A stretch of 25,687 nucleotides of DNA from a virus. Shown here piece after piece: positions 1-17,803 of this stretch. The translations under genes and the position numbers were made by a program. The notes under the pieces are model-generated. The model saw only the letters and a program-made list of their open reading frames with translations. It was not told the origin of the DNA and ran no database searches. Each line of letters starts with the position of its first letter. Within the stretch, counting starts at the first letter, position 1. Where the stretch lies: positions 1 to 25,687 of IMG/VR virus record IMGVR_UViG_3300028392_000269, one strand, 5' to 3'.

Positions 1-141
1 CGCCACTGCACAGTTGAGGTCGATGTCTACGAAGTGGTTGGGTTCGATGGTCCAGTCGCCGTTGACGTACAGGTCGAAGCCTGCGTCGTCTGCGTGTGCT
101 CTGGTCGGTCGTGTGCCTTTGTAGCGTAGTACGTTCTTCAT
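1..141 (-). CDS. dut: dUTPase, N-terminal part (gene runs off the left edge)
   Basis: This is the first 47 codons of a gene whose 3' end lies outside the window. The product begins MKNVLRYKGTRPTR and contains DAGFDLY at residues 19-25, which matches motif 1 of trimeric dUTPases (AG-[FY]-D-L). It is followed by a W-T-I-E-P...D-I-D-L stretch, as in phage dUTPases. The family hydrolyses dUTP to dUMP and pyrophosphate, keeping uracil out of DNA and feeding dTMP synthesis. Its ATG overlaps the stop of the upstream gene by 4 bases (ATGA), so the two are probably translationally coupled. The remaining motifs are not visible, so the call rests on motif 1 and on the nucleotide-metabolism neighbours. 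Confidence 0.8.
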   Translation of the reverse strand, partial: MKNVLRYKGTRPTRAHADDAGFDLYVNGDWTIEPNHFVDIDLNCAVA

Positions 142-539
142 TCGGTGGTCGCTTTCACGGTCAGTTCGTTTCGGAGCACTTCGAGGTTGTCAAATATGAT
201 GACGTTTCGCAGTCTGGCTAACGCCCAACTGTTCTTGTAGTCGGGGGCGTACAGGTAGATGAACATACCAAGTTTGTTGGCGAGTTTGAGTTCTAGCACC
301 GTGCCGATGGTTGGCACGCCTTTCACTAGGAACGCCACCAGTATGTCGGTTTGTGCTAGTGCGTATTCGTTGATTTGTTGCAGTGCTGGTGTTGGTTTGG
401 TGTCGGCGTGCACGGTCCATGCGCTGGCTGGGTTGTAGTAGGTGTAACCTGTCTCTTCTAACAGGTCTTGCAGTTGAGCGCGTGTGTCTTGTACGTCTTT
501 GTTTGCGTAGTCGATTGGTCCTGCGAGGTACACTATCAT
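138..539 (-). CDS. Nucleoside 2-deoxyribosyltransferase-like protein
   Basis: This 133-residue protein begins MIVYLAGPID. The N-terminal YLAGP loop and the later GT-V-L-E-L segment (residues 79-84, Glu83 in the catalytic-Glu position) are typical of the nucleoside 2-deoxyribosyltransferase superfamily. Enzymes of this fold move 2-deoxyribose between bases or hydrolyse deoxynucleoside monophosphates. I start it at 539 because the fold begins there and the ATG overlaps the upstream stop (ATGA at 536-539). The open frame continues upstream to 830, but that part is Arg-rich shadow sequence. It lies between dUTPase and the MazG-like gene, so a role in the deoxynucleotide pool is likely. Whether it acts on diaminopurine or guanine deoxynucleotides cannot be told from sequence. 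Confidence 0.7.
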   Translation of the reverse strand: MIVYLAGPIDYANKDVQDTRAQLQDLLEETGYTYYNPASAWTVHADTKPTPALQQINEYALAQTDILVAFLVKGVPTIGTVLELKLANKLGMFIYLYAPDYKNSWALARLRNVIIFDNLEVLRNELTVKATTE

Positions 540-886
540 GGGAAGATTCCGCCTGTCGCGCGTACGCGTTGCGCCATCATCGCGTAGATGCCTGTGTCGT
601 ACCATGTGTCGTCGCTGGGTGCGTGTCCGTCTGCGTATCCGCCTACGATTCGTCCGACTTTGCCTAGCAGGTAGAAGGCGATGCCTAGTTCTGCTGGGTG
701 CACTTTGCCTTCGAGTTGTGGCATCATCTTCATCATGACTTCGCCTACGATTTGCAAGTCGGTACTGCCGTATTCGCGCACTTTGGGCAGCATGCCTGCG
801 AGTGATTTGTCTGCGTGTTCTAGCCACCACTCAGCGAATTCGTCTATTCTTAGGTCTTTATCGGTTTCTTGGTTTTTGCCTTCCAT
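536..886 (-). CDS. mazZ: MazG-like nucleotide pyrophosphohydrolase, candidate MazZ
   Basis: This is a 116-residue, all-helical protein. It contains R-E-Y-G-S-T-D-L (residues 37-44), then E-L-G-I-A-F-Y-L-L-G-K (66-76) and a D-D-T-W-Y-D...Y-A-M-M block (92-104). That acidic spacing is seen in phage MazG-like pyrophosphohydrolases, which cleave (d)NTPs to (d)NMPs with metal held by Glu/Asp. In aminoadenine phages the MazZ member converts dGTP to dGMP, the substrate of PurZ, and purZ lies two genes upstream in this operon. The start at 886 has a GGA ribosome-binding site about 10 bases upstream; the longer open frame to 1081 is an Arg-rich shadow. MazG-like assignment is fairly firm. The MazZ role is inferred from PurZ. 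Confidence 0.7.
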   Translation of the reverse strand: MEGKNQETDKDLRIDEFAEWWLEHADKSLAGMLPKVREYGSTDLQIVGEVMMKMMPQLEGKVHPAELGIAFYLLGKVGRIVGGYADGHAPSDDTWYDTGIYAMMAQRVRATGGIFP

Positions 887-891
887 GGCGT

Positions 892-1122
892 TTATTCCTG
901 TTCTGTCTCGTCGTCGTCTAGATAGACTACGATAACTGTTTGCGGTTCTGGTTCGTCTTGCGGTTCGTAGTTGTGTGAACCCCAACGTGTCATATGCCAC
1001 CCTGAGCAGAAGTGGTAGTCTCCTTCGTGGGTGGACACGACGAGCCAGTCTACGGAGTTGCGGTCGTCTAAGGTTATCCACTTATCGCAGTCTGGCTCGT
1101 CGCATTTTAGGGCTTCACTCAT
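892..1122 (-). CDS. Small Cys/His protein, unknown function
   Basis: This 76-residue protein carries C-D-E-P-D-C near the N-terminus (residues 7-12) and H-F-C-S-G-W-H around residues 37-43. The four Cys/His positions could bind one zinc ion. The C-terminus is strongly acidic (D-D-D-E-T-E-Q-E). Its ATG overlaps the purZ stop (ATGA at 1119-1122), so it is translated with purZ, and it lies directly before the MazG-like gene. I do not recognise the family beyond small zinc-binding phage proteins. Its position inside the purZ-mazZ pair makes an accessory role possible but unproven. Confidence 0.7.
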   Translation of the reverse strand: MSEALKCDEPDCDKWITLDDRNSVDWLVVSTHEGDYHFCSGWHMTRWGSHNYEPQDEPEPQTVIVVYLDDDETEQE

Positions 1123-2159
1123 TGATTCCAGTAGATGGTCGCCATCGTAGTTGGGCTTGTCCCGACTAGAGCGACTGTCGCTCCTGTTTCTGCTTGTAGG
1201 TTCTCGATGTAGTCGCGGTAGGGCTTCTCATCTGGAACTATTGTAGCATTTTTGAGTTCTGGGAAGACGTAGTCGAACATGGTTAGGGCGATTCGGGCTT
1301 TCGGTGCGCCACCGTTGGCTTGGACGGCTCGTTTGACGATTTCGGCGTCGAACGTTCCTACGCGTCTAACTTTGTTGGTTACGGTGGTCCGTTCTACTTC
1401 CAGCCCGAGGGTTGCCCAGTCGGTTTCGTTGGCTAGTGGTCCGCTGTTTCCTGCTACGCGGATTGGGTGTGTTCGTGCGACGACCCACACGTCGAGGTCG
1501 ACGATTCCGTGTTGCCACGGGCTGATTCCTGCCATGGCTAGGAAGTCGATGGCTCGGCAGTCACTGGAGGTACAGAAGGGGTATTCTCCTGCGTGTGTGC
1601 CTAGTCCGTAGCCTTGTGTACCTTCGATGAGCACGTGGGTGTCTTCTTGGGTGAGGGCGTCTTGGAGTATGGCTACGGTGTTGCAGTCGCCACCGTACAG
1701 TTCTGCGTTGCGCATGATTCGGTCGGCACGGGCTGCTCCGATTCCTTTGGCGGTTGAGCCTAGCCGTTCTTGCATAGCGTCTATGCGTTCGCGGTCTTGG
1801 TGTCGCTGGTCGATGATGGTAGCCTCGCGGTCGATGTAGAGTCGGTCGCTGGCTTGGTAGCCTGCTCGGTCTAGTCGGTCGAGTTCGTCGTCTAGCACGG
1901 CTAGTTCGATTTCAGACCCTGCTGCGATGATTAGGGTGCTTCGGGGGTCGGTTACGGCTGTGACGGGGACGGTGCGCAGTTTCCATGCGTAGTTGGTTTC
2001 GCCGTCTGGTCCGTTGCCGTAGACGGTGTGTCCTGCGTTTGGTCCTGCGACGCGTACGCCGTAGTTCCTCCAGCCGATTTGCTGGCTGAGGTAGCCTGTT
2101 ACAGCACCTTTGCCTTCCGACCCGTATTGTCCGCCTACGATGACGCTTACTTTGCTCAT
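1119..2159 (-). CDS. purZ: PurZ: N6-succino-2-amino-2'-deoxyadenylate synthase
   Basis: This is a 346-residue homologue of adenylosuccinate synthetase, much shorter than bacterial PurA (about 430). The P-loop reads G-G-Q-Y-G-S-E-G-K-G (residues 9-18). Ser14 replaces the catalytic Asp of PurA, as in the phage PurZ enzymes that use dGMP plus aspartate. N-A-G-H is kept (41-44), as are E-G-T-Q-G (179-183), Y-P-F-C-T-S-S (193-199) and the Arg pair at 265-266. The guanine-reading T-K-x-D is T-M-F-D (293-296), which fits loss of GTP preference. The product goes to adenylosuccinate lyase to give dZMP, the 2-aminoadenine nucleotide. The start at 2159 follows AAGGAAATAG; the in-frame ATG at 2192 lies inside the upstream gene and lacks this site. 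Confidence 0.9.
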   Translation of the reverse strand: MSKVSVIVGGQYGSEGKGAVTGYLSQQIGWRNYGVRVAGPNAGHTVYGNGPDGETNYAWKLRTVPVTAVTDPRSTLIIAAGSEIELAVLDDELDRLDRAGYQASDRLYIDREATIIDQRHQDRERIDAMQERLGSTAKGIGAARADRIMRNAELYGGDCNTVAILQDALTQEDTHVLIEGTQGYGLGTHAGEYPFCTSSDCRAIDFLAMAGISPWQHGIVDLDVWVVARTHPIRVAGNSGPLANETDWATLGLEVERTTVTNKVRRVGTFDAEIVKRAVQANGGAPKARIALTMFDYVFPELKNATIVPDEKPYRDYIENLQAETGATVALVGTSPTTMATIYWNQ

Positions 2160-4041: not shown

Positions 4042-4475
4042 GCAGGGGTCTCTAAGCCCGTGTCGTCGGGGTTCTTGAAGTGCCACCACCACCCGTGGGC
4101 TACGGCGTCCCTCATGTGCTGACCACCCTTCGGCATATCGAACCCTTGGGCGTCCATCCGCTCGAACGCGTGCCTCTTGATAGTCGCTGGCTGCATCGCT
4201 ACGGGGCTGCCGTTACGGTGTGCCAGATATTTCAGTGCGCCGATGAGTTGAGGCGTCTTCATCGCACTGAACCCTTGCTTCTGCGCGAGCCACGGGTACA
4301 ATTTAAAATCTTCAATCACCACCATGTCGAACTTAATGACTTCGATAATCTCCGCCATCTTCAACGGCTCAATCGTCTTAGCCTCTTCAATCTGACCGCC
4401 CAGCCAAACGCACATTCCTACGTGCTTGTCGCCTGGGTCGATTGAAACAACGTGAAGGTTTTTTATTTTGCCCAC
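4038..4475 (-). CDS. RuvC-like Holliday junction resolvase
   Basis: This 145-residue RNase H-fold nuclease has the acidic residues in RuvC order. Asp13 is in V-V-S-I-D-P-G (9-15), Glu55 in M-V-V-I-E-D-F (51-57), and Asp123 in H-M-R-D-A-V-A-H-G (120-128), with His127 taking the last metal-ligand place. It should cut branched DNA made during phage replication and recombination. The start is GTG at 4475, 13 bases inside the end of the polymerase gene, so the two are translationally coupled. Its base composition is C-rich on the plus strand, unlike the G/T-rich plus strand of the genes between 1 and 3300. Confidence 0.8.
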   Translation of the reverse strand: MGKIKNLHVVSIDPGDKHVGMCVWLGGQIEEAKTIEPLKMAEIIEVIKFDMVVIEDFKLYPWLAQKQGFSAMKTPQLIGALKYLAHRNGSPVAMQPATIKRHAFERMDAQGFDMPKGGQHMRDAVAHGWWWHFKNPDDTGLETPA

Positions 4476-6307
4476 TGTTTGTAGTCCGCCTTGAACTCGA
4501 TACCGAACAGTTCTTCAAATGTCGCCACTAATACGTCGCGCACTTGCATCACTGTCTCTTCGGCTTCCTTTGTTGGAACTTCCAGAACCATCGAATCATG
4601 AATCTGCAGTAGAAGCAAGTTTGGGTAGAGACGTTCAACGTCAATCATCGCCATTTTCATCGCTTCCGCCACTCCGCCTTGGATAACTGCGTTGAACGCT
4701 TTGTGGCTCTGCTCGTCAAAGCCCCAGTGACGTAACCGTCCACTAATGAGTTTTACATATCCGCGCTTTTGCACTGCTTGGTCTGCGTATTTGGCTGCTT
4801 GCACGAACTCGGGGAATGCAGACCTGTATTGCTCAACCCACTGTTTCACTTCGGATTCGCTGGCGTCAACACCTGTGTGCATCTTGATTTGTTCGCGTGT
4901 GGTTCGCACTCCTGCACCGTACAACATGCCGAATGTTAGTCGTTTACCAACACTACGGTATTTGTCCCAATCGGGGTGGTCTTTATCGATGCCGAACACT
5001 AGTTTGGTTGTTGCGTCGTGTGCGTCTTCTCCTCGTTCGAGTCTGTCGCGCATTGGCTGGCAGTTCGCCACTGATGCGGCTACTCTAATTTCTGCTTGGC
5101 TGACGTCAATCTCCCACAGTTCGTGGTTGCCTTTCGGCTGGAAGAACGCCCTGACGCCTTCAACGCCATCACCGAACAGTTGGTTCAGTTGGTAGTCGTG
5201 TGGTATGGCTTGCAGTTGGACGCGTTCTACGCTGAGTCGTCCGCTGACCACTTTGGTCTGGCGGAAGTTGGTTCGCAGTCGTCCGTCTTGTCCGACCAGT
5301 TTGCCCCAATTACCGTACCACTTCTCCAGTGCGCTTTTTACTTCGGTCCACCGTAGGTAGGTCTGTGCGTGCGGTATGTCCTTCTTGGCGAGTTTCTTGA
5401 TGGTCTCGTTGTCGAGGCTTGGTGTTCCGCTCGCGCCGATTTTGCTCGGTATGATGCCTAGTGTGCCGTAGTAGTAGGCTTTGGCGGCTGGGATTGTGGG
5501 CTTGAAGGGCAGTTGCTCTTCCAGTTCGGCTTTGAGTTTGCGCAGGATTTCGGCTGATTTCTCGGCTCGTTCGGCGTCGTATCCGATTCCGCGCTGTTCC
5601 ATCTTGTACAGCACTTTCATCAGTTGAATCTCGCGGTCGGCTAGTACGGCTAGGTGCTGGTCGTCTGTTTCGAGCCTGCGCCATTGTACTTCGGCTAGTC
5701 TGAGGGTGAGGGCTGCATCTTGGGCTGCGTATGGTCCGACGATTGCCCAGTCGACGAGGTCGAATCGTTTGGTCAGTCCTGTGCCTTGCTTTTTGAGGGC
5801 TGCTTGGACGTCGTGCTGTTCTTGGGCTACGCCTTCGCCGAATAGCCGTGAGCAGGTGGGTTTAAGTCCTGAACTTTGTAGTGGGTCGAGTAGGGGCTGG
5901 ACGAGTTGGGTGTCCCACATGGTCTGGTCGAGTAGGTCGACGCCACCCCATTCGCGTGTTCCTTCGCGGAGCATGTGTAGGTCGAATTTGGCGTTGTGGA
6001 ACACTAACTGCTGTTTGCTTAGCCAGTACATGAGGTGTGCCCATTGTTCGCGGTCGAGGTTGATGTCTTGGTCGAATGCGCTTTGGGTTTGTCCTGTCTT
6101 CTCGGAGATGCGCCCTTGGTCGAATGGGAAGGCGTAGGCGGTGATGCCTTTGGCTAGCCGTTCTTGTGTACCTTCTTCTCGCCATGCGATTGAGACGATT
6201 GAGACGGTTGCGCCGTCGTCTACGAACAGTCCGCTGGTTTCGGTGTCGACTGCTACGACCATATTGGTCTTGTTGGGTAGCACGTCGGTTGGGTTGTGGA
6301 TTTGCAT
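4463..6307 (-). CDS. polA: Family A DNA polymerase with 3'-5' exonuclease, DpoZ candidate
   Basis: This 614-residue replicative polymerase lacks a 5' nuclease domain. Exonuclease motifs are intact: D-T-E (Asp21, Glu23), H-N-A-K-F-D (104-109) and Y-A-A-Q-D (193-197). The polymerase domain has S-G-R-L-S (355-359), motif A D-V-S-Q-A-E-I-R (401-408), motif B R-S-V-G-K-R-L-T-F-G-M-L-Y-G (451-464) and motif C Q-I-H-D-S (568-572). Motif C is H-D-S, not the usual H-D-E, and the Tyr after the motif A Asp is Val. With purZ, mazZ and purB in the same genome it is a good candidate for DpoZ, the polymerase whose active site and proofreading favour dZTP over dATP. That preference is inferred. Ribosome-binding site AAGGTGAG precedes the ATG. 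Confidence 0.88.
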   Translation of the reverse strand: MQIHNPTDVLPNKTNMVVAVDTETSGLFVDDGATVSIVSIAWREEGTQERLAKGITAYAFPFDQGRISEKTGQTQSAFDQDINLDREQWAHLMYWLSKQQLVFHNAKFDLHMLREGTREWGGVDLLDQTMWDTQLVQPLLDPLQSSGLKPTCSRLFGEGVAQEQHDVQAALKKQGTGLTKRFDLVDWAIVGPYAAQDAALTLRLAEVQWRRLETDDQHLAVLADREIQLMKVLYKMEQRGIGYDAERAEKSAEILRKLKAELEEQLPFKPTIPAAKAYYYGTLGIIPSKIGASGTPSLDNETIKKLAKKDIPHAQTYLRWTEVKSALEKWYGNWGKLVGQDGRLRTNFRQTKVVSGRLSVERVQLQAIPHDYQLNQLFGDGVEGVRAFFQPKGNHELWEIDVSQAEIRVAASVANCQPMRDRLERGEDAHDATTKLVFGIDKDHPDWDKYRSVGKRLTFGMLYGAGVRTTREQIKMHTGVDASESEVKQWVEQYRSAFPEFVQAAKYADQAVQKRGYVKLISGRLRHWGFDEQSHKAFNAVIQGGVAEAMKMAMIDVERLYPNLLLLQIHDSMVLEVPTKEAEETVMQVRDVLVATFEELFGIEFKADYKQWAK

Positions 6308-6544: not shown

Positions 6545-7360
6545 TCATTTGCCTTGTTCCTCTTCAAAATCGACAAAGCAACCGCAACCACCAATATCAA
6601 ACTCGTCAAACAGGCTTGGCTGTTGCCCCGTCTGCTGGCGCAGTTCCGAAAGCGTAATCATCACTGGCTCGTTGTTTACTCGTTTACGCAAAATAGAAAC
6701 TTCTTTACCTAAGAAGTCACGCACTCCTTGTTCTTGCGCTTCCCATTCTGCGAATCGTTCGGGCATAAGTTCCAGCAGTTTCTTGAACTGTCCTTGACCT
6801 GCACGCACGCACCCCCCACCGCAGTTATTGTGAGCAAACCCAAGGTCATATAAGCGTGGGGTTTTTAGACCTTCGCTATTCGCCCATTCAATCATTTGTT
6901 TCTTGTCTAGGTAAGGTGGTTCGGTTAGCGGTGCTTCAGCCTTGTACGGTAGGTAGTTGCGTACGATGGCTGGTATGCGGTGGGTTTCTGTCCAGTCGAT
7001 ACCAACGTATACGACGGTGTCTTCAGGGTCGCAGTTCTCTTCTAGCCATTTTCGGGCTGGTTTTTGTTTCAATTCATGTGAGCAATTTGCCTGTCGGCTG
7101 TTGCCTAAGAACTTTCGGTCTTTGAATACCTGCCAGATGTCTCTGCCTGTATTGATATAGACGTAATATCCGCCGATGTTGGCTACCGCGTCTTCAATAA
7201 ACCGATAAGTGTCTGGGTCTTCACCTACGTGCGGTGACGGATTGTTACCTTTCACGTCGGTAAACACCAAGTACAAGTCCTCTGTGCCGTGCTGTTCTGC
7301 TACGCGCTTTGCAGCAGCCCACGAACCGATACCGCCACTAAACATGACTACGTGTTTCAT
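6545..7360 (-). CDS. PP-loop ATPase of the PAPS reductase/DndC-like family
   Basis: This 271-residue protein begins MKHVVMFSGGIGSW. S-G-G-I-G-S (8-13) is the PP-loop that binds ATP for adenylation, as in PAPS reductases, DndC and related enzymes. N-C-S-H-E-L-K and C-G-G-G-C-V-R-A-G-Q further on are typical of phage members. The C-terminal G-G-C-G-C-F-V-D-F could bind metal or an Fe-S cluster. The family activates substrates for sulphur transfer, base or tRNA modification, or sulphate assimilation, so the substrate here is open. The start at 7360 is chosen for the PP-loop and the ATGA overlap with the 58-codon gene upstream. No dnd partners are in the window. Confidence 0.75.
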   Translation of the reverse strand: MKHVVMFSGGIGSWAAAKRVAEQHGTEDLYLVFTDVKGNNPSPHVGEDPDTYRFIEDAVANIGGYYVYINTGRDIWQVFKDRKFLGNSRQANCSHELKQKPARKWLEENCDPEDTVVYVGIDWTETHRIPAIVRNYLPYKAEAPLTEPPYLDKKQMIEWANSEGLKTPRLYDLGFAHNNCGGGCVRAGQGQFKKLLELMPERFAEWEAQEQGVRDFLGKEVSILRKRVNNEPVMITLSELRQQTGQQPSLFDEFDIGGCGCFVDFEEEQGK

Positions 7361-7533
7361 TTGCCTAACCTTTCTATGTATTTTGCGATGCGCTGGACTG
7401 TGTCGTACTGCGCCTGTAACGAAGGGCTGTTCTTGGCTTCGTAACAATCGTTGTGCTTACCCTCACAAGCGCAAGTGAATGCGAACGGAGTGAAGTGGTC
7501 ACGGATATGTTGGGCTAGTTCTTGGCTGGTCAT
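7357..7533 (-). CDS. Small Cys-containing protein (58 aa), unknown
   Basis: This short gene begins MTSQELAQHIRDHF and ends KYIERLGK. It has C-A-C and a further Cys (C-A-C-E-G-K-H-N-D-C) in the middle, a possible metal site, followed by a predicted helix. The evidence that it is real is its fit: it fills the gap between its neighbours exactly, with ATGA overlaps at both ends (7530-7533 and 7357-7360), as elsewhere in this gene run. Function unknown. Confidence 0.7.
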   Translation of the reverse strand: MTSQELAQHIRDHFTPFAFTCACEGKHNDCYEAKNSPSLQAQYDTVQRIAKYIERLGK

Positions 7534-8081: not shown

Positions 8082-10481
8082 CTACTCCCAACCGTTACTT
8101 GCGATTTCGACCACGCGGTCTGACCAAAGTACGTCCAAAGCCACGTAACGGGCTTTCGGAGCGTCTCTGCCAACTCCAGTGCGCTTGAACACCGACCCTG
8201 TTATTCCAAGGGCACGGAGTTGCGCTCTGATGGCTTCGGGACTATCTAGACGGTCGGTCTTACCACGCTTCCGAAGTTCCTTCTGCCAAGCACTAGCCAA
8301 GCGGTCTGGGTGCAGGTATACGATACCATCTTCTACAAACGCTGGTGGCTCACCGCCCATACGGTCCACCATCTTACCGAACTCGTCCACCACAGCCCAC
8401 GGTAGCAGTTTCGTGACCAATGTGTTCTCAGAGCCGAAGTCGCGTTGGCTGGCACACCAAGCATCTACACGTTCAACGATGGTGTGGTCGTCCACGATAT
8501 CCGCTAGGATTCGGGCAGCGTTACGCAGGATTGCCAACACTTCATGGTGTCGACCGTGTCCCGTCCTCAAGTCGGTTACTTCGCCGATGAGGTGTTCACG
8601 CTGTAGGGCTAACATCACCATCGTACCTGCGTATTTAGATAGGTCACCTTCGAGCCGTTCCAGCCGCTTCACGTCGTCCCACTGTGGGTAGTCACCCTTT
8701 GTGCTTTTACGTCCTACTGGACTTGGCACTTCGGTCAGTAAAACACGCCTATCGCGTTGTGCCTTCTCGCCACCACCTAGTTCGCCCAGCGATTCGCCTG
8801 TGATAAGGATAGGGGCTACTAACTTAATATCAACTGTGCCTGTATTATCGGCTGCTTTCTTACCTTCAGACCCTTCACCCGTTGCTTGGCGCAATAGGTC
8901 TGCGATGTTATCTAGTCGGTTCGAGTCGTCGATATGAACAATGCCATTACGGTGTGAGCCGATTGCGTCGCGTGTGGCTGCTTTAGTCCATTCGCCGAAT
9001 CTGACTGTACCAGCCAAGTTGAGCATCAATCGGAAGAAGCCTCGGGTCTTGCCAGATTCGCTGGCTGCTTCGATTGCGAAGTATGGGAAGTGTCCGATAG
9101 CACCCATGTATTGACCTTTGAGCAGGGTCGCTACCCACCACGCGCCAAACACTGCGGTTACGGTCTCATCGTGGAAGGTCAGCACTTCGCGCAGAACTTC
9201 TACCGCACGGTCGGGGTTGCCCATTCCGTATTTGACGGGTGCTAGGTTCTGCAAGGCTGGGTTCGGCATCACACCTTCGTGTGATTTCATACCCGTGGCT
9301 GTGATGACGCCTTCGTGCGTAACAAATCCGATTCCGTCAATCCACCCTAAGTGCGGTATCTCTTTATATAGTGTGGGCTGTTGGCTCTCAAGGTAGCGCA
9401 AGATTCGCGCCCCTGCGTTGACGCGTGAACGGTTGTCGTTCTTTGGCGGTACTACGCTGACGCCGTGCTTGGCTAACCAACTGAGTGTGTCGTTCATACG
9501 TCCTAACATCGCGCCTTTAATGAGGTCGTCTCTGCTCTCGCCGTCGGACCTGTGCACGGTCACAGCATAGGTGCGTCCTAGTGGTCCGTCGATTACACCG
9601 CGTGCTTCGATATCAGCGTTACACCAGCGGTCCACCCCGACTATCTTCTGATTGGCGATTTCGGTGACGATTTCGGTGTAGAGCCAAAGCCCGTCACCTA
9701 TCAACCAGCCTGTGTCGGCTGTAGGGGTGTCTGGTTTGGCGTGTTCTTTGTCCCAAACGCCGACTTTCTTCTCAATCTCTTCATCAGTCAGCGGTGAGGG
9801 CAGACTGCGGTTGATGGTGTGCAGTAGGCTCAGGTACGCGTCTGGGTAGGGTACGATTTTGGCTAGGTGTCCAGCAACTCTGGTTACCCAGACGTCACGT
9901 CCACCTTCGGTGGGGGGTTCGTTGAGCAGGGCGGACAGTAGGCTTTTGGGGGCGTCGGTTGCGGTATCGTTCTCGGATGCAACCTGCCCCATATTGGATA
10001 TCGGGGCGACCTGCAGGTGTTCAAGCCCTCGTATGAAGGCGTAGACGTGTCCCGTTTCGTGCACGGACGGTGGGGCTATTACGCCACCCCCGTCGCCTCG
10101 AATGTCAAAGGAGATACCGTTCTCGCGCTGGGAGGCGGTACTGGACCAAGACCTCAGTGCTTCACCGTCTGGTATGCGTAGCCAGTAGTGGTAGCCTTTG
10201 CTGGTCTTAACACACGTGGTGGTGTCTAGCAGGTCTGAGCCTAGGCGTTCGCGCCAGTAGACGTCGCCACCCCTTGAGTCACAGTCAATCACTACGATAC
10301 CGCTGGGTGCGCCTGTTGCTATCCAGATGTTGTTATCGCGGTCGAACCAACTAGCGATTTTTGCTCGGTTCGGTCGGTTCTCGGCTACGTCACGCCACGG
10401 TACTGTAGGTGATTTGCCTCGCGCTGGTAGCGGCAGGATTCCTGCGTCGAAGAATGCGAGGGCTTGGTCTTTATTTGGCAT
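8082..10481 (-). CDS. Bifunctional primase-polymerase / helicase-like replication protein
   Basis: This 799-residue protein starts with an archaeo-eukaryotic primase (prim-pol) domain. It has V-V-I-D-C-D (63-68) with the two metal Asp residues, T-S-K-G-Y-H-Y-W (93-100), and F-D-I-R-G-D-G-G-G-V-I-A-P-P-S (125-139), the standard bifunctional prim-pol ending. The C-terminal half carries a P-loop, A-A-S-E-S-G-K-T-R (472-480), and a Walker B-like G-I-V-H-I-D-D (513-519), as in phage DUF927/D5-type helicases. Together these should prime and unwind DNA at the fork for the family A polymerase. The leader hairpin at 10484-10513 covers the ribosome-binding site. Aminoadenine phage S-2L also uses a prim-pol, but there as its polymerase. 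Confidence 0.85.
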   Translation of the reverse strand: MPNKDQALAFFDAGILPLPARGKSPTVPWRDVAENRPNRAKIASWFDRDNNIWIATGAPSGIVVIDCDSRGGDVYWRERLGSDLLDTTTCVKTSKGYHYWLRIPDGEALRSWSSTASQRENGISFDIRGDGGGVIAPPSVHETGHVYAFIRGLEHLQVAPISNMGQVASENDTATDAPKSLLSALLNEPPTEGGRDVWVTRVAGHLAKIVPYPDAYLSLLHTINRSLPSPLTDEEIEKKVGVWDKEHAKPDTPTADTGWLIGDGLWLYTEIVTEIANQKIVGVDRWCNADIEARGVIDGPLGRTYAVTVHRSDGESRDDLIKGAMLGRMNDTLSWLAKHGVSVVPPKNDNRSRVNAGARILRYLESQQPTLYKEIPHLGWIDGIGFVTHEGVITATGMKSHEGVMPNPALQNLAPVKYGMGNPDRAVEVLREVLTFHDETVTAVFGAWWVATLLKGQYMGAIGHFPYFAIEAASESGKTRGFFRLMLNLAGTVRFGEWTKAATRDAIGSHRNGIVHIDDSNRLDNIADLLRQATGEGSEGKKAADNTGTVDIKLVAPILITGESLGELGGGEKAQRDRRVLLTEVPSPVGRKSTKGDYPQWDDVKRLERLEGDLSKYAGTMVMLALQREHLIGEVTDLRTGHGRHHEVLAILRNAARILADIVDDHTIVERVDAWCASQRDFGSENTLVTKLLPWAVVDEFGKMVDRMGGEPPAFVEDGIVYLHPDRLASAWQKELRKRGKTDRLDSPEAIRAQLRALGITGSVFKRTGVGRDAPKARYVALDVLWSDRVVEIASNGWE

Positions 10482-10483
10482 GC

Positions 10484-10513
10484 GGTGTCCTTCTAGACAC
10501 GAAGGTCGACACC
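10484..10513 (-). promoter_or_regulatory. Hairpin sequestering the prim-pol ribosome-binding site
   Basis: In the mRNA sense GGUGU pairs with ACACC and CCUUC with GAAGG. This gives 10 base pairs with a 3-base bulge and a 7-base loop. The 3' arm GAAGG is the ribosome-binding site, 7 bases before the ATG at 10481. Folded, it should reduce initiation. It may couple prim-pol translation to upstream ribosomes or to a protein. Confidence 0.6.
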
Positions 10514-10545
10514 CCTAAAGGAATGCCGACCTCCGCGTGCGATTG

Positions 10546-10983
10546 TTAGAATGCGAAGTCTTCGGTCTTACCTGTTGCTGTAGAGGAGTCACTTTCGCCG
10601 AGTGCCTGAACCGTATCAATCTGATTGGTTACTTCTCCTGCACGTGCGCCCATTTGGATTGTGCGCTGTACGACTACAGCCTTGACGCGCTTGCCTAACA
10701 ATTCGTCGGTGTCAGTGTCTGGGGTCGTACCGAAAGCGTTGAACACTTCCTTCAACTTCCACAGTGCTGCTTCCGAGAGACTGGTGTTCATCCAGAAACG
10801 GCGACCTGCATACGATTCGCCTTCTGGGATTTCGAAGGTCCAGACCCAGTAAGGTCCTTTTTGTCCTTCTTTGACGTCTACTTCGCGTAGACGCACAACG
10901 TAAACGCCTTCTTCTAACGGCTCGAACCCTGAACCGCCACTTGCCTCTTCAACGGCTGATGCCATCACTTTGTTGAGTTTCAT
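10546..10983 (-). CDS. DUF669-like / single-stranded DNA-binding protein
   Basis: This 145-residue protein begins MKLNKVMASAVEEAS. The core is beta-rich (E-E-G-V-Y-V-V-R-L-R-E-V ... G-P-Y-W-V-W-T-F-E-I-P-E-G), with R-R-F-W-M-N-T-S-L around residue 61-69. This resembles phage DUF669 proteins, which sit beside Sak-type recombinases. The C-terminus is acidic and ends E-D-F-A-F, like the interaction tail of bacterial SSB. It would coat single-stranded DNA and recruit the recombination or replication proteins. Stop and start codons place it immediately after the Sak4-like ATPase. The DUF669 assignment is from pattern memory. Confidence 0.65.
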   Translation of the reverse strand: MKLNKVMASAVEEASGGSGFEPLEEGVYVVRLREVDVKEGQKGPYWVWTFEIPEGESYAGRRFWMNTSLSEAALWKLKEVFNAFGTTPDTDTDELLGKRVKAVVVQRTIQMGARAGEVTNQIDTVQALGESDSSTATGKTEDFAF

Positions 10984-10985
10984 TT

Positions 10986-11813
10986 CTATTTCTCTTCCTG
11001 CGCTGGTGCGCTGTTGTTACTCGCTTCGCGTGCTGCACGCTGGCGAGGGTCTGTTTCTGCCGTGAGTTCGCCGTTAACGTAGGCGACCACTCGGTCTAGC
11101 GTCGGGTCGACTAAGGTCTGTGGCAGGATGCCGAAGCGGTCCTTGCCCGTGAACTTGCCGACTGGTTTACATGTTCCGAGGTGGAACTCTTGTCCGCCGA
11201 TTTCGCGCACTTCGGTGTGAATAATGACGTCCACGTAGCCCATTAGGTCTGTCTGGAACGCTGGTGTTAGTGCTGGTGAGTAGGTCACGCTTCCGTCGTC
11301 GTCCACTTCACGCTTTGGCAGTGCGCCGAACGCTACGTGGCAGGGCAGGTCGCGGAAGCGTCGTGTTAACCGTCGCATCTGCTCTGTGACTACGCCCCAG
11401 TCGGCTCGGTCAATCTGGAACGGGTCGCGGTCCATACCGCGTCCTGTTGCTTTGGCGACTGCTTTGCCGATGATGTTCTCTAGCAGAATCTTTTGGATTT
11501 CGGTTACTGAATCCAGCACAACTGTGGAGATTGAGGTCGGGTCGTCGGTCAGTCGGGCTTTCACTTCGAAGTACACCTGTTCTAGGGCTTCGAATGTGAT
11601 TTGCTGGTGTGGCTCGATTTGGTCGGTTGGGATTCCTAGCCGTGCCAGTGGTCCGCGTTTCAATCCGCTTTCGGCGTCGATGTAGAGGACTGGTCCGAGT
11701 TTCGATGCGCTGGACATCGCGGTGGTTTTGCCTGAGCCTGCGTCGCCGTAGTACAGGATTTTGACCACTTCTTGTTGGTCTGCGAGCGTGGCTCGCGGTG
11801 TTGCTTTTGCCAT
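10986..11813 (-). CDS. Sak4-like RecA-fold ATPase (single-strand annealing/recombination)
   Basis: This 275-residue P-loop protein has Walker A G-D-A-G-S-G-K-T-T (23-31) and Walker B T-V-V-L-D-S-V (97-103). The length and compact RecA-like core fit the phage Sak4 family, which works with SSB-like proteins in recombination. Here it stands next to a DUF669-like protein and a Cas4-like nuclease, a common phage recombination set. The start at 11813 is chosen because AAGG lies just upstream and the fold begins after it. The frame upstream to 11891 is leader sequence containing promoter E and a hairpin. The C-terminal tail (A-P-A-Q-E-E-K) is disordered. Confidence 0.8.
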   Translation of the reverse strand: MAKATPRATLADQQEVVKILYYGDAGSGKTTAMSSASKLGPVLYIDAESGLKRGPLARLGIPTDQIEPHQQITFEALEQVYFEVKARLTDDPTSISTVVLDSVTEIQKILLENIIGKAVAKATGRGMDRDPFQIDRADWGVVTEQMRRLTRRFRDLPCHVAFGALPKREVDDDGSVTYSPALTPAFQTDLMGYVDVIIHTEVREIGGQEFHLGTCKPVGKFTGKDRFGILPQTLVDPTLDRVVAYVNGELTAETDPRQRAAREASNNSAPAQEEK

Positions 11814-11844
11814 TGTCTTACCTTCCGTTGTTTGTATGTTCTCT

Positions 11845-11864
11845 GCACGGGTTGACCGCCGTGC
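11845..11864 (-). promoter_or_regulatory. 5' leader hairpin of the Sak4-like gene
   Basis: GCACGG (11845-11850) and CCGTGC (11859-11864) form a 6-base stem with an 8-base loop. It lies in the leader between promoter E and the start at 11813. It is the fourth leader hairpin downstream of a member of the promoter family. Confidence 0.5.
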
Positions 11865-11881
11865 TCGGTGATTGCTTTCAT

Positions 11882-11911
11882 ACCCTACCACACGGTGTGA
11901 CAGGGTGTCTA
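11882..11911 (-). promoter_or_regulatory. Promoter E (divergent member of the promoter family)
   Basis: On the minus strand: -35 TAGACA (11906-11911), 18-base spacer ending GTGTGG, and -10 TAGGGT (11882-11887) with TG-N before it. It aligns with promoters A to D in spacing and extended -10 but has lost most of TGGCAA. It should drive the recombination and replication genes from 11813 onward. Confidence 0.55.
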
Positions 11912-11924
11912 ATTGGCGGTTACT

Positions 11925-12800
11925 TTAGTGTCTGGTGAAATTCTGGACGAACCCAACTTCACCTAGGTAACCGCGTGTGCCACCGCGTCCATCTTTAGCC
12001 CCGAACAGGCATGCTTCGGTGTACGGGCAACGCCACCTACAGGTGTCGGTGTTGAAATGGCGCGATAGGTCGATGCCTGTCTTTTTAGACTTGCGTAGAC
12101 CAGCGTACGCTTGATATGCGTCTTGGTAGGCGTCTGCTGCTAACTGCGCCAGTTCTGCGTCGGATTTCGCGATTAGGGTGCGACTGAATCGGTCGCCTAA
12201 CGCCATCTCACCCTTGTTACGCTGTGTGCGTAGGGTGTTGTAAATCATGCCGTGCACAGGATACCCAAGTTGGCGCATAGCCCAAGCATAAAGACCGAAC
12301 TGGACGTCAAGGTCGAGTTCTTTATCGGACGGCAGGCGAGCCGCTGTCTTGTGGTCCACCAGCCAGAGCCGACCGTTCCACTCGACCAACAGGTCAATTT
12401 TGCCTTTGATTTTGATGTTGCTGTTCTTGCCGTCGGGCTTGGGCAACGGTAGGACGAAGTCGTGTTCAACCGCTATGACCTTCCACTGGTCGTCATACGC
12501 GTAACGGTCTACGTAGCCTTCCACAATCCAGTGGACGAGTTCCCCTATTTCGTCAAGGTACGCGCCGTTCTGGTCAAAAACAGTACCTTCCGAGGCTCGG
12601 ACGATATCTTCTAGAACTGGGCGCGGACCGTCGGCTGTCTGCAGGGCTTCGTACCAATTCTCCAAGATGGTGTGTACGCGCTTACCGCGGTCTAACGCCA
12701 CGGCATCGACAGGGGAGACCCACCGTTCGCCGTAAGCCAGTTGGTGCTTGAACGGACACTGTCGGTAGGTGTCAAGTTCGCTGAATGAGATGATAGGCAT
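11925..12800 (-). CDS. Cas4-like / RecB-family exonuclease with Fe-S cysteines
   Basis: This 291-residue PD-(D/E)XK nuclease has R-G-K-R-V-H (38-43), G-K-I-D-L-L (133-138, Asp136), V-D-H-K-T (148-152, Asp149 and Lys151) and Q-F-G-L-Y-A-W (167-173), the RecB-nuclease order. One N-terminal Cys (Cys15, R-Q-C-P-F-K) and three C-terminal Cys (254, 258, 264) are positioned as in Cas4 and AddB for a 4Fe-4S cluster. It should resect DNA ends for Sak4-type recombination. No cas1, cas2 or CRISPR repeat is near, so it is not adaptation machinery. Its stop precedes promoter E by 13 bases, and its start abuts the upstream gene stop. Confidence 0.85.
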   Translation of the reverse strand: MPIISFSELDTYRQCPFKHQLAYGERWVSPVDAVALDRGKRVHTILENWYEALQTADGPRPVLEDIVRASEGTVFDQNGAYLDEIGELVHWIVEGYVDRYAYDDQWKVIAVEHDFVLPLPKPDGKNSNIKIKGKIDLLVEWNGRLWLVDHKTAARLPSDKELDLDVQFGLYAWAMRQLGYPVHGMIYNTLRTQRNKGEMALGDRFSRTLIAKSDAELAQLAADAYQDAYQAYAGLRKSKKTGIDLSRHFNTDTCRWRCPYTEACLFGAKDGRGGTRGYLGEVGFVQNFTRH

Positions 12801-13289
12801 CTAAGATACCACCCTTCCGTCTAAGGCGTGCTGGAACTTCAACAGTAACCGCTCGCTGATTGCGCCGACCTGCCTCTTGGCTTCGGCTTCTTCTATCTCA
12901 CCTAACTTGATTGCTAGGCGTAATTTGGCTAGCCAGCGTGCATCGTGTCCTGCACGAAACACACCGCCAGCCGTGAGTTCGGTGCAACCGCAGTGGCACA
13001 CTTTCGACTTAGGCTTCGACTTGGGCTTAGGTTGAGCAACCTCGCCTAGGGTCTGTCGCCAGTGAGCGCGAACTTCGGCGTAAGCGTGACTCGGCGTAGG
13101 CTTCACCCTGCTCTGGTAGCCACATTCACACTGGGCGATGAACCCGTTTTTGTAGTCTACCACCCTGCAGGGGTGACTGCGGTCGATTCCTGCGTAGCCT
13201 TCGCACAGGACACACAAGTTGTCGCCGTGGTCGGGTGCGGTTGTGCCACACAGGTTGTCGCCGTTGTCGTTCTTGTAGTGCTTACTCAT
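12801..13289 (-). CDS. Cys-rich phage protein with two putative zinc regions, unknown
   Basis: This 162-residue protein has an N-terminal region with C-V-L-C...H-P-C-R-V-V-D and C-E-C (about residues 26-56), and a Pro/Lys-rich linker (Q-P-K-P-K-S-K-P-K-S-K). The C-terminal region has V-C-H-C-G-C-T...F-R-A-G-H-D-A-R-W-L-A-K-L (about 97-125). The GHDARWL block is common in small phage proteins of unknown role. Zinc binding is likely and nucleic-acid contact is possible. It is joined to the Cas4-like gene with no gap (TAG then ATG). Confidence 0.7.
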   Translation of the reverse strand: MSKHYKNDNGDNLCGTTAPDHGDNLCVLCEGYAGIDRSHPCRVVDYKNGFIAQCECGYQSRVKPTPSHAYAEVRAHWRQTLGEVAQPKPKSKPKSKVCHCGCTELTAGGVFRAGHDARWLAKLRLAIKLGEIEEAEAKRQVGAISERLLLKFQHALDGRVVS

Positions 13290-14352: not shown

Positions 14353-14382
14353 ATCCAACCATATGGGTTGCCAGTCTGTCAA
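14353..14382 (-). promoter_or_regulatory. Promoter B (repeated promoter family)
   Basis: On the minus strand: -35 TTGACA (14377-14382), 18-base spacer with TGGCAA and ATATGG, and -10 TTGGAT (14353-14358) with TG-N. The -35 overlaps the purB stop codon, the same placement as promoter A over the RuvC-like stop. The -10 is the weakest of the three close copies. Confidence 0.7.
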
Positions 14383-15662
14383 ATCAAATCCCTTAGGGCG
14401 GTCCTCAGCGTGTCGCCAAGGTCCGAAAGCCCGTCCACGGACGCCGACATTGAGAATACGTCGTCGAAGTCCACGAAGGTATCTGGGAACGCCGTAGGAA
14501 GCGTCCTGCGCACTTCGCGCTCCAAATCCCCCAAAAGGGCTTTCCGTGCCGTCTCGTGGACGTACGCGTGCGCGTCCTTCCGAGACACCCCAGCCTTCAT
14601 CAAAGCAGCCAGAACTCTGTGGCTGTAGACGTCCGTATTCGACCGAACATTCGTATACATGCTGTTAGTCCGAACGTTCAAACCGTTCAACAGGGACGTG
14701 GTGTCGTCCAGTATCGTGTCCGCCACATGGCACAAGTCCACTAACGCCACGCGTTCCACACTCGAATGTGCGATATCACGTTCATGCCACTGCACAATAG
14801 ACGGTTCAATCGCACTGGCGTAACCGCGAGCCAGCCGAGCCAAACCACAGATACGTTCAGCCGTAATCGGATTTCGCTTGTGTGGCATAGAACTCGAACC
14901 GCGCTGTGATTCAGCAAAAGTTTCGTCGACCTCGCGTACGCCACTATGTGCGGATAAACGAATTTCGGTAGCAATAGCCTCGCACACGCTGGTGACATTG
15001 GTGATGCAGTGCGCCCAATGCACAAGACTGTCGCGCATCAAAATCTGACTTGCAACAGGTACTGTCAACAGACCTAGCGATTTAGCCGCTTGAATCTCGA
15101 CATCACGACTGATATCAGCATATGTGCCTGTCGGTCCGCTCAACTTCGCCACCGAAATGTCTTCGAGTGCACCAGTCAACCGCACCAAATTGCGGTCTAA
15201 TGCATACATGAAATCCGCCATTTTGTGACCCCAAGTGTCCACTGTCCCTCGCTGTCCGTGGGTTCTGCCTACACGGTACGTGTTCCAGTGCTTGACTGTA
15301 TGCTGGTGGCAGACGTGTGACAGTTCCAGTGTCTTACGTAGCAGGACGATACTAGCCCGTTGCAGTGCCATTGACTGCGCGGTCTCCACGACGTCGCTGC
15401 TGGTCAGTCCAAGATGCGCGAACTCTGCACCCCAGACGTCTAGAAACGCCACCACATCGTGACGGGTCTCAAGTTCACGCTCTGCCACCTGCTCAGGTGT
15501 GGGGGTTGGGCAGTTCGCTGCTTGTTTCCAAGCACTGTCGGGCAGGACGCCTTCGCTGACTTGTGCACTCAGTACCGCCATCTCTACCGCGACCCACCTT
15601 TCAAGTCGAGCCTCGTCAGACCAGATAGCGGTCATGGCTTCCGATTCGTATCTGCTAATCAT
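14379..15662 (-). CDS. purB: Adenylosuccinate lyase (PurB), phage-encoded
   Basis: This 427-residue lyase is full length for the bacterial family. It has the N-terminal M-I-S-R-Y...M-T-A-I-W-S (1-15), T-R-H-D-V-V-A-F (66-73), L-T-S-S-D-V-V (86-92), G-R-T-H-G-Q (132-137, His135), the mobile catalytic loop with G-S-S-S-M-P-H-K-R-N-P (255-265) and E-R-D-I-A-H-S-S-V-E-R-V (294-305). It removes fumarate from adenylosuccinate, and in Z phages from N6-succino-2-amino-dAMP, giving dZMP. The usual H-A-E-P-T-T after the catalytic THG is R-G-T-V-D-T here, a change beside the active site. It starts within an ATGA overlap with the gene upstream, and promoter B begins at its stop. Its A/T skew differs from its left neighbour. 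Confidence 0.93.
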   Translation of the reverse strand: MISRYESEAMTAIWSDEARLERWVAVEMAVLSAQVSEGVLPDSAWKQAANCPTPTPEQVAERELETRHDVVAFLDVWGAEFAHLGLTSSDVVETAQSMALQRASIVLLRKTLELSHVCHQHTVKHWNTYRVGRTHGQRGTVDTWGHKMADFMYALDRNLVRLTGALEDISVAKLSGPTGTYADISRDVEIQAAKSLGLLTVPVASQILMRDSLVHWAHCITNVTSVCEAIATEIRLSAHSGVREVDETFAESQRGSSSMPHKRNPITAERICGLARLARGYASAIEPSIVQWHERDIAHSSVERVALVDLCHVADTILDDTTSLLNGLNVRTNSMYTNVRSNTDVYSHRVLAALMKAGVSRKDAHAYVHETARKALLGDLEREVRRTLPTAFPDTFVDFDDVFSMSASVDGLSDLGDTLRTALRDLI

Positions 15663-16136: not shown

Positions 16137-16373
16137 CTAGAACTTGTATTTCGGGCTGATGATTTCCAACGCCACTAGAATCTCATGGGGGGTACTGTCC
16201 AAAGCCTTGCACAGAGGCGGTAGTACGGCGATACTTGGTCGGGTTTCAAGCGTGAAGTACCGCCAGAGGTTGCCTCGGTTGATGCCGATTGCGACCGCCA
16301 CCTGCTCAAGTGAGGTGTAGCCTAGTTCGTTCATGCGATTGCGTAGGAATTTCATTCCTGTTTGGGTCTTCAT
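16137..16373 (-). CDS. XRE-type helix-turn-helix DNA-binding protein (78 aa)
   Basis: The product begins MKTQTGMKFLRNRMNELGY. The helix-turn-helix is about residues 19-45 (T-S-L-E-Q-V-A-V-A-I-G-I-N-R-G-N-L-W-R-Y-F), followed by a capping helix (I-A-V-L-P-P-L-C-K-A-L-D). Proteins of this size act as Cro- or repressor-like transcription factors. The ATG at 16373 is chosen for its AAGGAGA site; an in-frame ATG at 16400 lies in the leader. It is the first gene before purB in this unit, so it may control purB and nearby promoters (inference). A second HTH protein is at 17567-17803. Confidence 0.8.
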   Translation of the reverse strand: MKTQTGMKFLRNRMNELGYTSLEQVAVAIGINRGNLWRYFTLETRPSIAVLPPLCKALDSTPHEILVALEIISPKYKF

Positions 16374-16407
16374 GGTATCTCCTTCTGTGACCTGTCTCAT
16401 CGGTGCT

Positions 16408-17566: not shown

Positions 17567-17803
17567 CTACGCGACTAGGCTCGGATTCTCGACAGTGTCG
17601 AAGATATTCTCGCGCAAGAACGAACTGAACGAATTCGGACCGTTCTCATACGCTGATGAAAGGTCGTCCATCTTCAAATCGAACTCATGCGAGATTTTGA
17701 TAAGTGTGCGAACGCTCGGCAGACGGTGACCATTTCTCATACGAGACGCCATCGTGAAATGGCAGCCCACGCGCTCCGCGAACTCTTCATTTGTAACAGC
17801 CAT
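17567..17803 (-). CDS. XRE-type helix-turn-helix protein, repressor/Cro candidate (78 aa)
   Basis: The product begins MAVTNEEFAERVGCHFTMASRMRNGHRLPSVRTLIKISHEF. The helix-turn-helix is about residues 6-27, with L-P-S-V-R-T-L as the next helix. It is close to lambdoid and XRE regulators in length and pattern. It is a one-gene unit with its own promoter (D) and a strong terminator. It sits at the border between the lysis genes and the accessory block. The inverted repeat over the -35 of promoters A to D is a reasonable operator for it (inference). A GAAAGGAG site precedes the ATG. Confidence 0.82.
   Translation of the reverse strand: MAVTNEEFAERVGCHFTMASRMRNGHRLPSVRTLIKISHEFDLKMDDLSSAYENGPNSFSSFLRENIFDTVENPSLVA

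Follow-up and report, generated by a model that had tools for sequence, protein, structure and literature searches.

Complete substitution of adenine by 2-aminoadenine (Z) has been described for some phages of Actinomycetota (PMC12884076). In the same paper, dutZ was present in all 98 PurZ0 genomes, DutZ and DmtZ activities were reported for Ghobes and Wayne, and ten residues were named for DmtZ. Relatives of the window dmtZ homologue act as dAMP hydrolase or deoxyribose-5-phosphate transferase. The DNA analyzed here, referred to as the window, is a viral stretch of 25,687 nucleotides (IMG/VR record IMGVR_UViG_3300028392_000269); it is a 25.7-kb fragment, in which the absence of a gene says little. 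Judged from its genes together, the window phage is very probably a siphovirus with a PurZ0-type pathway that would replace adenine by Z in its DNA. The likely Z genome proposed in the first-pass annotation is well supported by the predicted PurZ0, DmtZ, DutZ, PurZ0-clade PolA and PurB-like lyase. The PurZ0 system itself is already described, and P5, a phage PurB step and a Tyr-type PolA go beyond the papers cited here. The identities of the genes, their catalytic residues, the operon order, the clade placements and the recurrence of the module were observed directly and are given below, with coordinates in Table 1.

Table 1. Positions of the features discussed, numbered along the window.
Feature	Position	Strand	Remarks
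dutZ homologue (P0007), first 47 codons	1..141	(-)	cut at record end
dmtZ homologue (P0002)	138..539	(-)	NDT superfamily, ATGA overlap with P5
P5	536..886	(-)	116 aa, all-helical, adjoins PurZ in 78/80 IMG/VR PurZ0 loci
Small ORF	892..1122	(-)	76 aa, Cys pairs, start overlapping purZ0 stop
purZ0, 2-amino-adenylosuccinate synthetase homologue	1119..2159	(-)	346 aa, Ser14 at PurA Asp13 position, TMFD motif
Family A DNA polymerase (PolA) with 3'-5' exonuclease	4463..6307	(-)	PurZ0-linked (DpoZ-1) clade, Tyr at helix O
Phosphoadenosine phosphosulfate reductase-like protein	6545..7363	(-)	PHROG 424, E 6e-59
DNA primase/polymerase (Prim-Pol)	8082..10481	(-)	same family as that of known PurZ0 phages
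purB-like adenylosuccinate lyase (P0003)	14379..15662	(-)	427 aa, GSSSMPHKRNP signature
Small repressor-like HTH protein	16137..16400	(-)	
Small repressor-like HTH protein	17567..17803	(-)	

Identity and clade of the PurZ0 protein

The purZ0 ORF was read from the ATG at 2159, which has AAGGAA upstream, and its product starts MSKVSVIVGGQYGSEGKG; an alternative in-frame ATG at 2192 is possible and has weaker support. The protein matched Adenylsucc_synt in Pfam (E 1e-40) and PHROG 1211, '2-aminooxy adenylosuccinate synthetase' (E 1.6e-81). Its nearest relatives were encoded on the IMG/VR contigs L018 (73% identity) and L011 (69%). Matches were obtained in 214 phage records, every one below 60% identity, the top ones being Streptomyces phage Galactica (54%), Arthrobacter phages (46-48%) and Gordonia phage Archimedes (46%). 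Chance was ruled out for this ORF because the homology to the L018 and Galactica proteins covers the full length.

Alignment with E. coli PurA placed Ser14 of the P-loop GSEGKG opposite the Asp of GTQWGDEGKG, which is the catalytic Asp13 in mature-enzyme numbering. The first-pass annotation, which had seen a PurA homologue with Ser for the catalytic Asp, was borne out on this point. All 37 PurZ0 representatives had Ser in the P-loop. The TMFD motif occupies residues 293-296, and Asp296 was invariant across an alignment of five PurZ0 proteins.

A PurZ/PurA tree of 91 proteins, two of them PurA rows, was computed with a quick IQ-TREE run and SH-aLRT support. The window protein fell inside a 44-row clade (SH-aLRT 99) containing all sampled viral PurZ0, together with L091, a row that is labelled bacterial and resembles a phage contig. 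The PurZ proteins of phiVC8, S-2L and SH-Ab 15497 formed a separate branch (SH-aLRT 100), and both PurA rows lay away from the window protein. The best PDB match was 7vf6 (E 2e-82), the PurZ0 of Gordonia phage Archimedes (PMC12884076), followed by weaker matches to P. horikoshii PurA (1e-39), phiVC8 PurZ (1e-26) and S-2L PurZ (9e-23). By these sequence comparisons the window protein belongs to the PurZ0 clade and not to the ATP-using PurZ clade. The tree and active-site alignment, both proposed in the first-pass annotation, thus grouped the protein with PurZ0 and not with PurA, and the S-2L/phiVC8/SH-Ab 15497 type suggested there has to be replaced by the PurZ0 type.

At the T-x-x-D site the window protein reads TMFD, the archaeal P. 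horikoshii PurA TMLD and the Archimedes protein SMAD, and the three ATP-using PurZ show a gap in a part of the alignment that is uncertain. TMFD had been taken for a departure from TKxD, and a preference for (d)ATP had been proposed; the Asp is kept, however, and the site agrees with that of archaeal PurA. Because TMFD matches the archaeal TMLD, and because Tong et al. are said to have reported in 2023 that PurZ0 uses GTP, GTP appears to be the likelier phosphate donor than ATP. PMC12884076 also bears on GTP use, with an ambiguous wording on the donor of the two PurZ subgroups that is taken here for a slip.

The purZ0 operon and the PurB-like lyase

From purZ0 onward, the small ORF, P5, dmtZ and dutZ follow tightly in one direction. 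The ends overlap between the purZ0 stop and the start of the small ORF, between the P5 stop and the dmtZ start (ATGA), and between the dmtZ stop and the start at 141. L018 and L011 also have a similar small ORF separating PurZ from P5.

The putative DmtZ scored 33.0 bits against PF05014 (cut-off 28.8), and a sequence search of the PDB with it gave no match. Its phage relatives, identified by tblastn, came from 116 records (105 Arthrobacter, 6 Gordonia and 5 Streptomyces), and the counts per host equal the PurZ record counts for those hosts. Ghobes gp53 has all ten DmtZ residues of PMC12884076, and the window protein is identical to Ghobes DmtZ at Tyr6, Asp12, Pro57, Asn77, Gly99, Glu103 and Trp124.

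The 47-residue DutZ fragment at the record end begins MKNVLRYKGTRPTRAHADDAGFDLYV, a dUTPase N-terminus, and its N-terminal stretch reads RAHADDAGFDLYV. It matched the dUTPase PDB chain 4gk6 (E 1.5e-4) and scored 19.3 bits against PF00692, under the cut-off of 22. Positions 1-661 of another contig, L245 (IMGVR_UViG_3300010157_000533), are 100% identical to window positions 1-661. Since L245 continues past window position 1, with a complete dutZ (dUTPase-like) and then a portal gene further on, the end of the record is not the end of the genome. On the strength of these homologies, PurZ0, DmtZ and DutZ are all present for the window phage.

Profiles run on the fetched flanks of 80 IMG/VR PurZ0 loci detected P5 in 78, DmtZ in 76, DutZ in 73 and PurB in 38, counts which are descriptive and not independent trials, since the loci were picked for PurZ and are mutually related. 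The module order across these loci, represented by 37 sequences at <90% identity, was PurZ-P5-(PurB)-DmtZ-DutZ, with PurB directly after P5 in 14 of the 80. In Gordonia phages the order was purZ, P5, gp52, dmtZ, gp54, dutZ.

Annotations of Gordonia, Streptomyces and Microbacterium phages list P5 as 'hypothetical protein'. It was found in 31 phage records, including 18 Microbacterium, 6 Gordonia and 5 Streptomyces, which are the PurZ record counts per host. In the reverse test, PurZ lay within 5 kb in 75 of the 77 loci recovered by P5 queries; the two loci lacking PurZ are stretches cut on the upstream side of P5. The P5 slot in the other 2 of the 80 PurZ0 loci, both Arthrobacter-type, was held by DUF5664, which in Wayne is a dATP/dGTP pyrophosphohydrolase (PMC12884076). 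Because of this slot replacement, P5 is proposed to be a dNTP pyrophosphohydrolase that would do the same job as DUF5664. The main text of PMC12884076 names no P5-like gene for PurZ0 phages.

The AlphaFold2 model of P5 is confident and has four helices (pLDDT 89, pTM 0.75). No Foldseek hit to it reached E 0.001. MazG-type chains were among the best of a weak list, at Z 4.8-5.6, which is too low to be relied on when proteins are helical; structural support for a MazG-like P5 is at most suggestive. Two other identifications of P5 were rejected. As a sequence homologue of DUF5664 or MazZ, it gave an hhalign probability of <1% against DUF5664, S-2L MazZ and the phiVC8 gene beside purZ. The match to PHROG 474 'phosphofructokinase' was weak (14 of 36 members, best 6e-4) and absent from DUF5664/MazZ proteins.

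The closest PDB entry to the PurB-like protein was T. maritima PurB (E 7e-71, residues 1-375), and L018 and L011 also carry the gene, at 62-65% identity. PurB matches occurred in 11 Gordonia and Streptomyces records, each of them a PurZ0 phage. A literature search on phage PurB found nothing. The conversion of dSMP to dZMP has been credited to host enzymes (PMC8342488, PMC12884076), and in its main text PMC12884076 is silent on a lyase. It is reasonable to propose that the phage lyase could act on dSMP to give dZMP as an addition to this host-credited step; if it does, the pathway may be independent of the host lyase.

Base composition at third codon positions shifted strongly along the one coding strand (1119-25055). 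The fraction of T was 0.05 in PurZ, 0.07 in PolA, 0.16 in PrimPol, 0.23 in PurB and ~0.41 in tail genes, and from PurZ to the tail genes C fell from 0.49 to 0.14-0.23 and A from 0.34 to 0.13-0.16. No such gradient was seen in the sampled Wayne and Ghobes genes, and a weaker form was present near PurZ in L018. One speculative explanation is that deamination (C to T, Z to G) affects the strands unequally as the DNA replicates.

Ser-type paralogues, the DNA polymerase and alternative readings

A scan with the PurZ0 alignment found a P-loop Ser in 78 of 80 loci with bacterial and archaeal PurA paralogues (L091-L170); the count is biased, since one of the two patterns used included GS, though there is no doubt that such paralogues exist. 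The tree-sampled paralogues stood on branches outside the PurZ0 clade, L091 excepted. Because many bacterial and some archaeal paralogues carry the same P-loop, the Asp-to-Ser change, which the first-pass annotation had treated as a sufficient hallmark, is by itself no proof of a Z genome, a point that matters for the annotation of PurA homologues. The neighboring genes, on which the first-pass annotation is silent, are stronger evidence for a Z genome than Ser14.

In 58 paralogue loci the gene stood in a cassette with an RNase_H_2 and kinase fusion upstream and/or a dCTP-deaminase-like protein downstream, both partners being present in 46. A deoxynucleoside kinase was also found in 16 cassette loci, and in other paralogue loci (L161, for example) the PurA-like domain was fused to a kinase domain. 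The cassette gave no strong PADLOC match, and a literature search on a PurZ-like defence system was empty; it is possibly a defence or nucleotide-modification system.

The window protein could in principle function as a Ser-type paralogue, making a succinylated nucleotide for defence, signalling or a different modification. It shares its P-loop with those 78 loci, many of which are cassettes that also encode a nuclease, kinases and a dCTP-deaminase-like protein, but the paralogues are mostly 33-40% identical to it, against 45-73% for phage PurZ0, they occupy separate tree branches, and the phage operon carries DmtZ and DutZ, whose relatives have roles in Z metabolism; such a function is very improbable. 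An ATP- or dATP-using PurZ of the S-2L/phiVC8 type, to which the P-loop Ser is common and whose phiVC8 member is 30% identical to the window protein, is also improbable. That type forms its own clade and is gapped where the window protein keeps T-x-x-D, the neighbor genes in the window are those of PurZ0 phages, and datZ and mazZ had no match in the 25.7-kb fragment when searched with small home-made profiles. It is scarcely credible that the protein is an ordinary PurA boosting AMP synthesis from IMP, since Ser replaces the catalytic Asp and the tree groups it with PurZ0, apart from the two PurA rows, even though it belongs to the same superfamily and is 25% identical to E. coli PurA.

The window PolA fell in a 47-row clade (SH-aLRT 100), with PurZ nearby for 45 rows. 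PolA was called with a profile derived from PurZ0 phages, which biases the profile scores; for the tblastn ranking, the window protein was the only query. In that ranking, relatives at E < ~1e-35 occurred with PurZ, except for contigs cut near PolA and L188, and relatives at 1e-30 or weaker never did. L188 (IMGVR_UViG_3300037222_000058) carries a PolA of the Phe type at 9911-13115, which falls in the PurZ0-linked clade and is followed downstream by DUF5664, and its whole 42.6-kb contig gave no PurZ or PurB match. This phage possibly lost or never had the pathway, and because of it the PolA clade is not strictly tied to PurZ.

Helix O of the window PolA reads KRLTFGMLYG, with Tyr at the E. coli Y766 position. 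L011, L018, Galactica and the majority of environmental relatives share this Tyr, and the position is Phe in Wayne, Ghobes, Archimedes, Goodman, phiVC8 and SH-Ab 15497. According to PMC8599892, Phe at this steric-gate position is the only change common to both DpoZ clades, and no single residue accounts for selectivity. The existence of a large PurZ0-linked PolA subclade that lacks the helix O Phe bears on the importance of this residue for Z selectivity. The Z selectivity of the window subclade is at most putative, and the claim of complete replacement is limited because its helix O has Tyr and not Phe. The phage might make dZTP and replace adenine only in part, with an unselective Tyr-type PolA and a Z content tracking the pool set by DutZ, DmtZ and P5. 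We consider this rather unlikely. The Tyr kept where those six phages have Phe speaks for it, but selectivity is not down to one residue and the PolA clade lies nearly always beside PurZ. An unspecific polymerase need not mean partial replacement, since S-2L DNA is fully replaced despite an unspecific PrimPol, dATP being removed (PMC8599892). Partial replacement concerns only the extent of the substitution and is compatible with a PurZ0-type Z pathway.

Proposed pathway and comparison with known phages

The reactions of the PurZ0-type pathway proposed for the window phage, and Z in its virion DNA, are read across from characterised relatives. DutZ, and perhaps also P5, would take diphosphate off dATP and dGTP, lowering dATP and supplying dGMP. 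PurZ0 would join dGMP and aspartate to dSMP, probably with GTP, and the phage PurB-like lyase or host PurB would release fumarate to leave dZMP, which host kinases would convert to dZTP. DmtZ may destroy dAMP or move its deoxyribose phosphate onto free Z base, and the genome would be copied with dZTP by the PurZ0-linked PolA and PrimPol. More tentatively, and with less than even probability, the locus may be a self-contained PurZ0 variant. In it, P5 would represent a so far unrecognised family of dNTP pyrophosphohydrolases that has become a fixed part of the module, the last step to dZMP would fall to the PurB of the phage itself, and the Tyr-type PolA would be either selective without Phe or dependent on the pool.

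A megablast comparison of window positions 1-25,000 with 50,697 phage records gave no match, and the phage represents a new lineage among Z-genome phages, without a close named relative. The Gordonia phages Archimedes and Ghobes resemble it in having PurZ0, a P5 homologue, DmtZ and DutZ in the same order, with DmtZ and DutZ as separate genes, and they share with it PolA, PrimPol, a Sak4-like protein and a PurB-like lyase. They differ in that PurZ is 46% identical (Archimedes) and their PolA has Phe where the window has Tyr; the window has all of these genes on one strand. The Streptomyces Hiyaavirus phages (Galactica, Hiyaa, Keanu, Spocter) have the closest named PurZ (54%), the P5 domain, DmtZ and DutZ domains, a PurB-like lyase and a Tyr-type PolA, but their genomes are 81-83 kb and DmtZ and DutZ are fused (L004 gp67). 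Arthrobacter Korravirus (Wayne) is alike in PurZ0, the DmtZ and DutZ domains, the PurZ0-linked PolA and PrimPol, and differs in the DUF5664 dATP/dGTP pyrophosphohydrolase in the P5 slot, the DmtZ-DutZ fusion, the lack of a PurB-like match and a Phe-type PolA. The ATP-using clusters of S-2L, phiVC8 and SH-Ab 15497 (datZ-mazZ-purZ) likewise have, within a phage nucleotide operon, a PurA-family synthetase whose P-loop carries Ser, but they belong to the other PurZ clade, have datZ/mazZ where the window has dmtZ/dutZ, and carry a PolA of another clade or PrimPol only.
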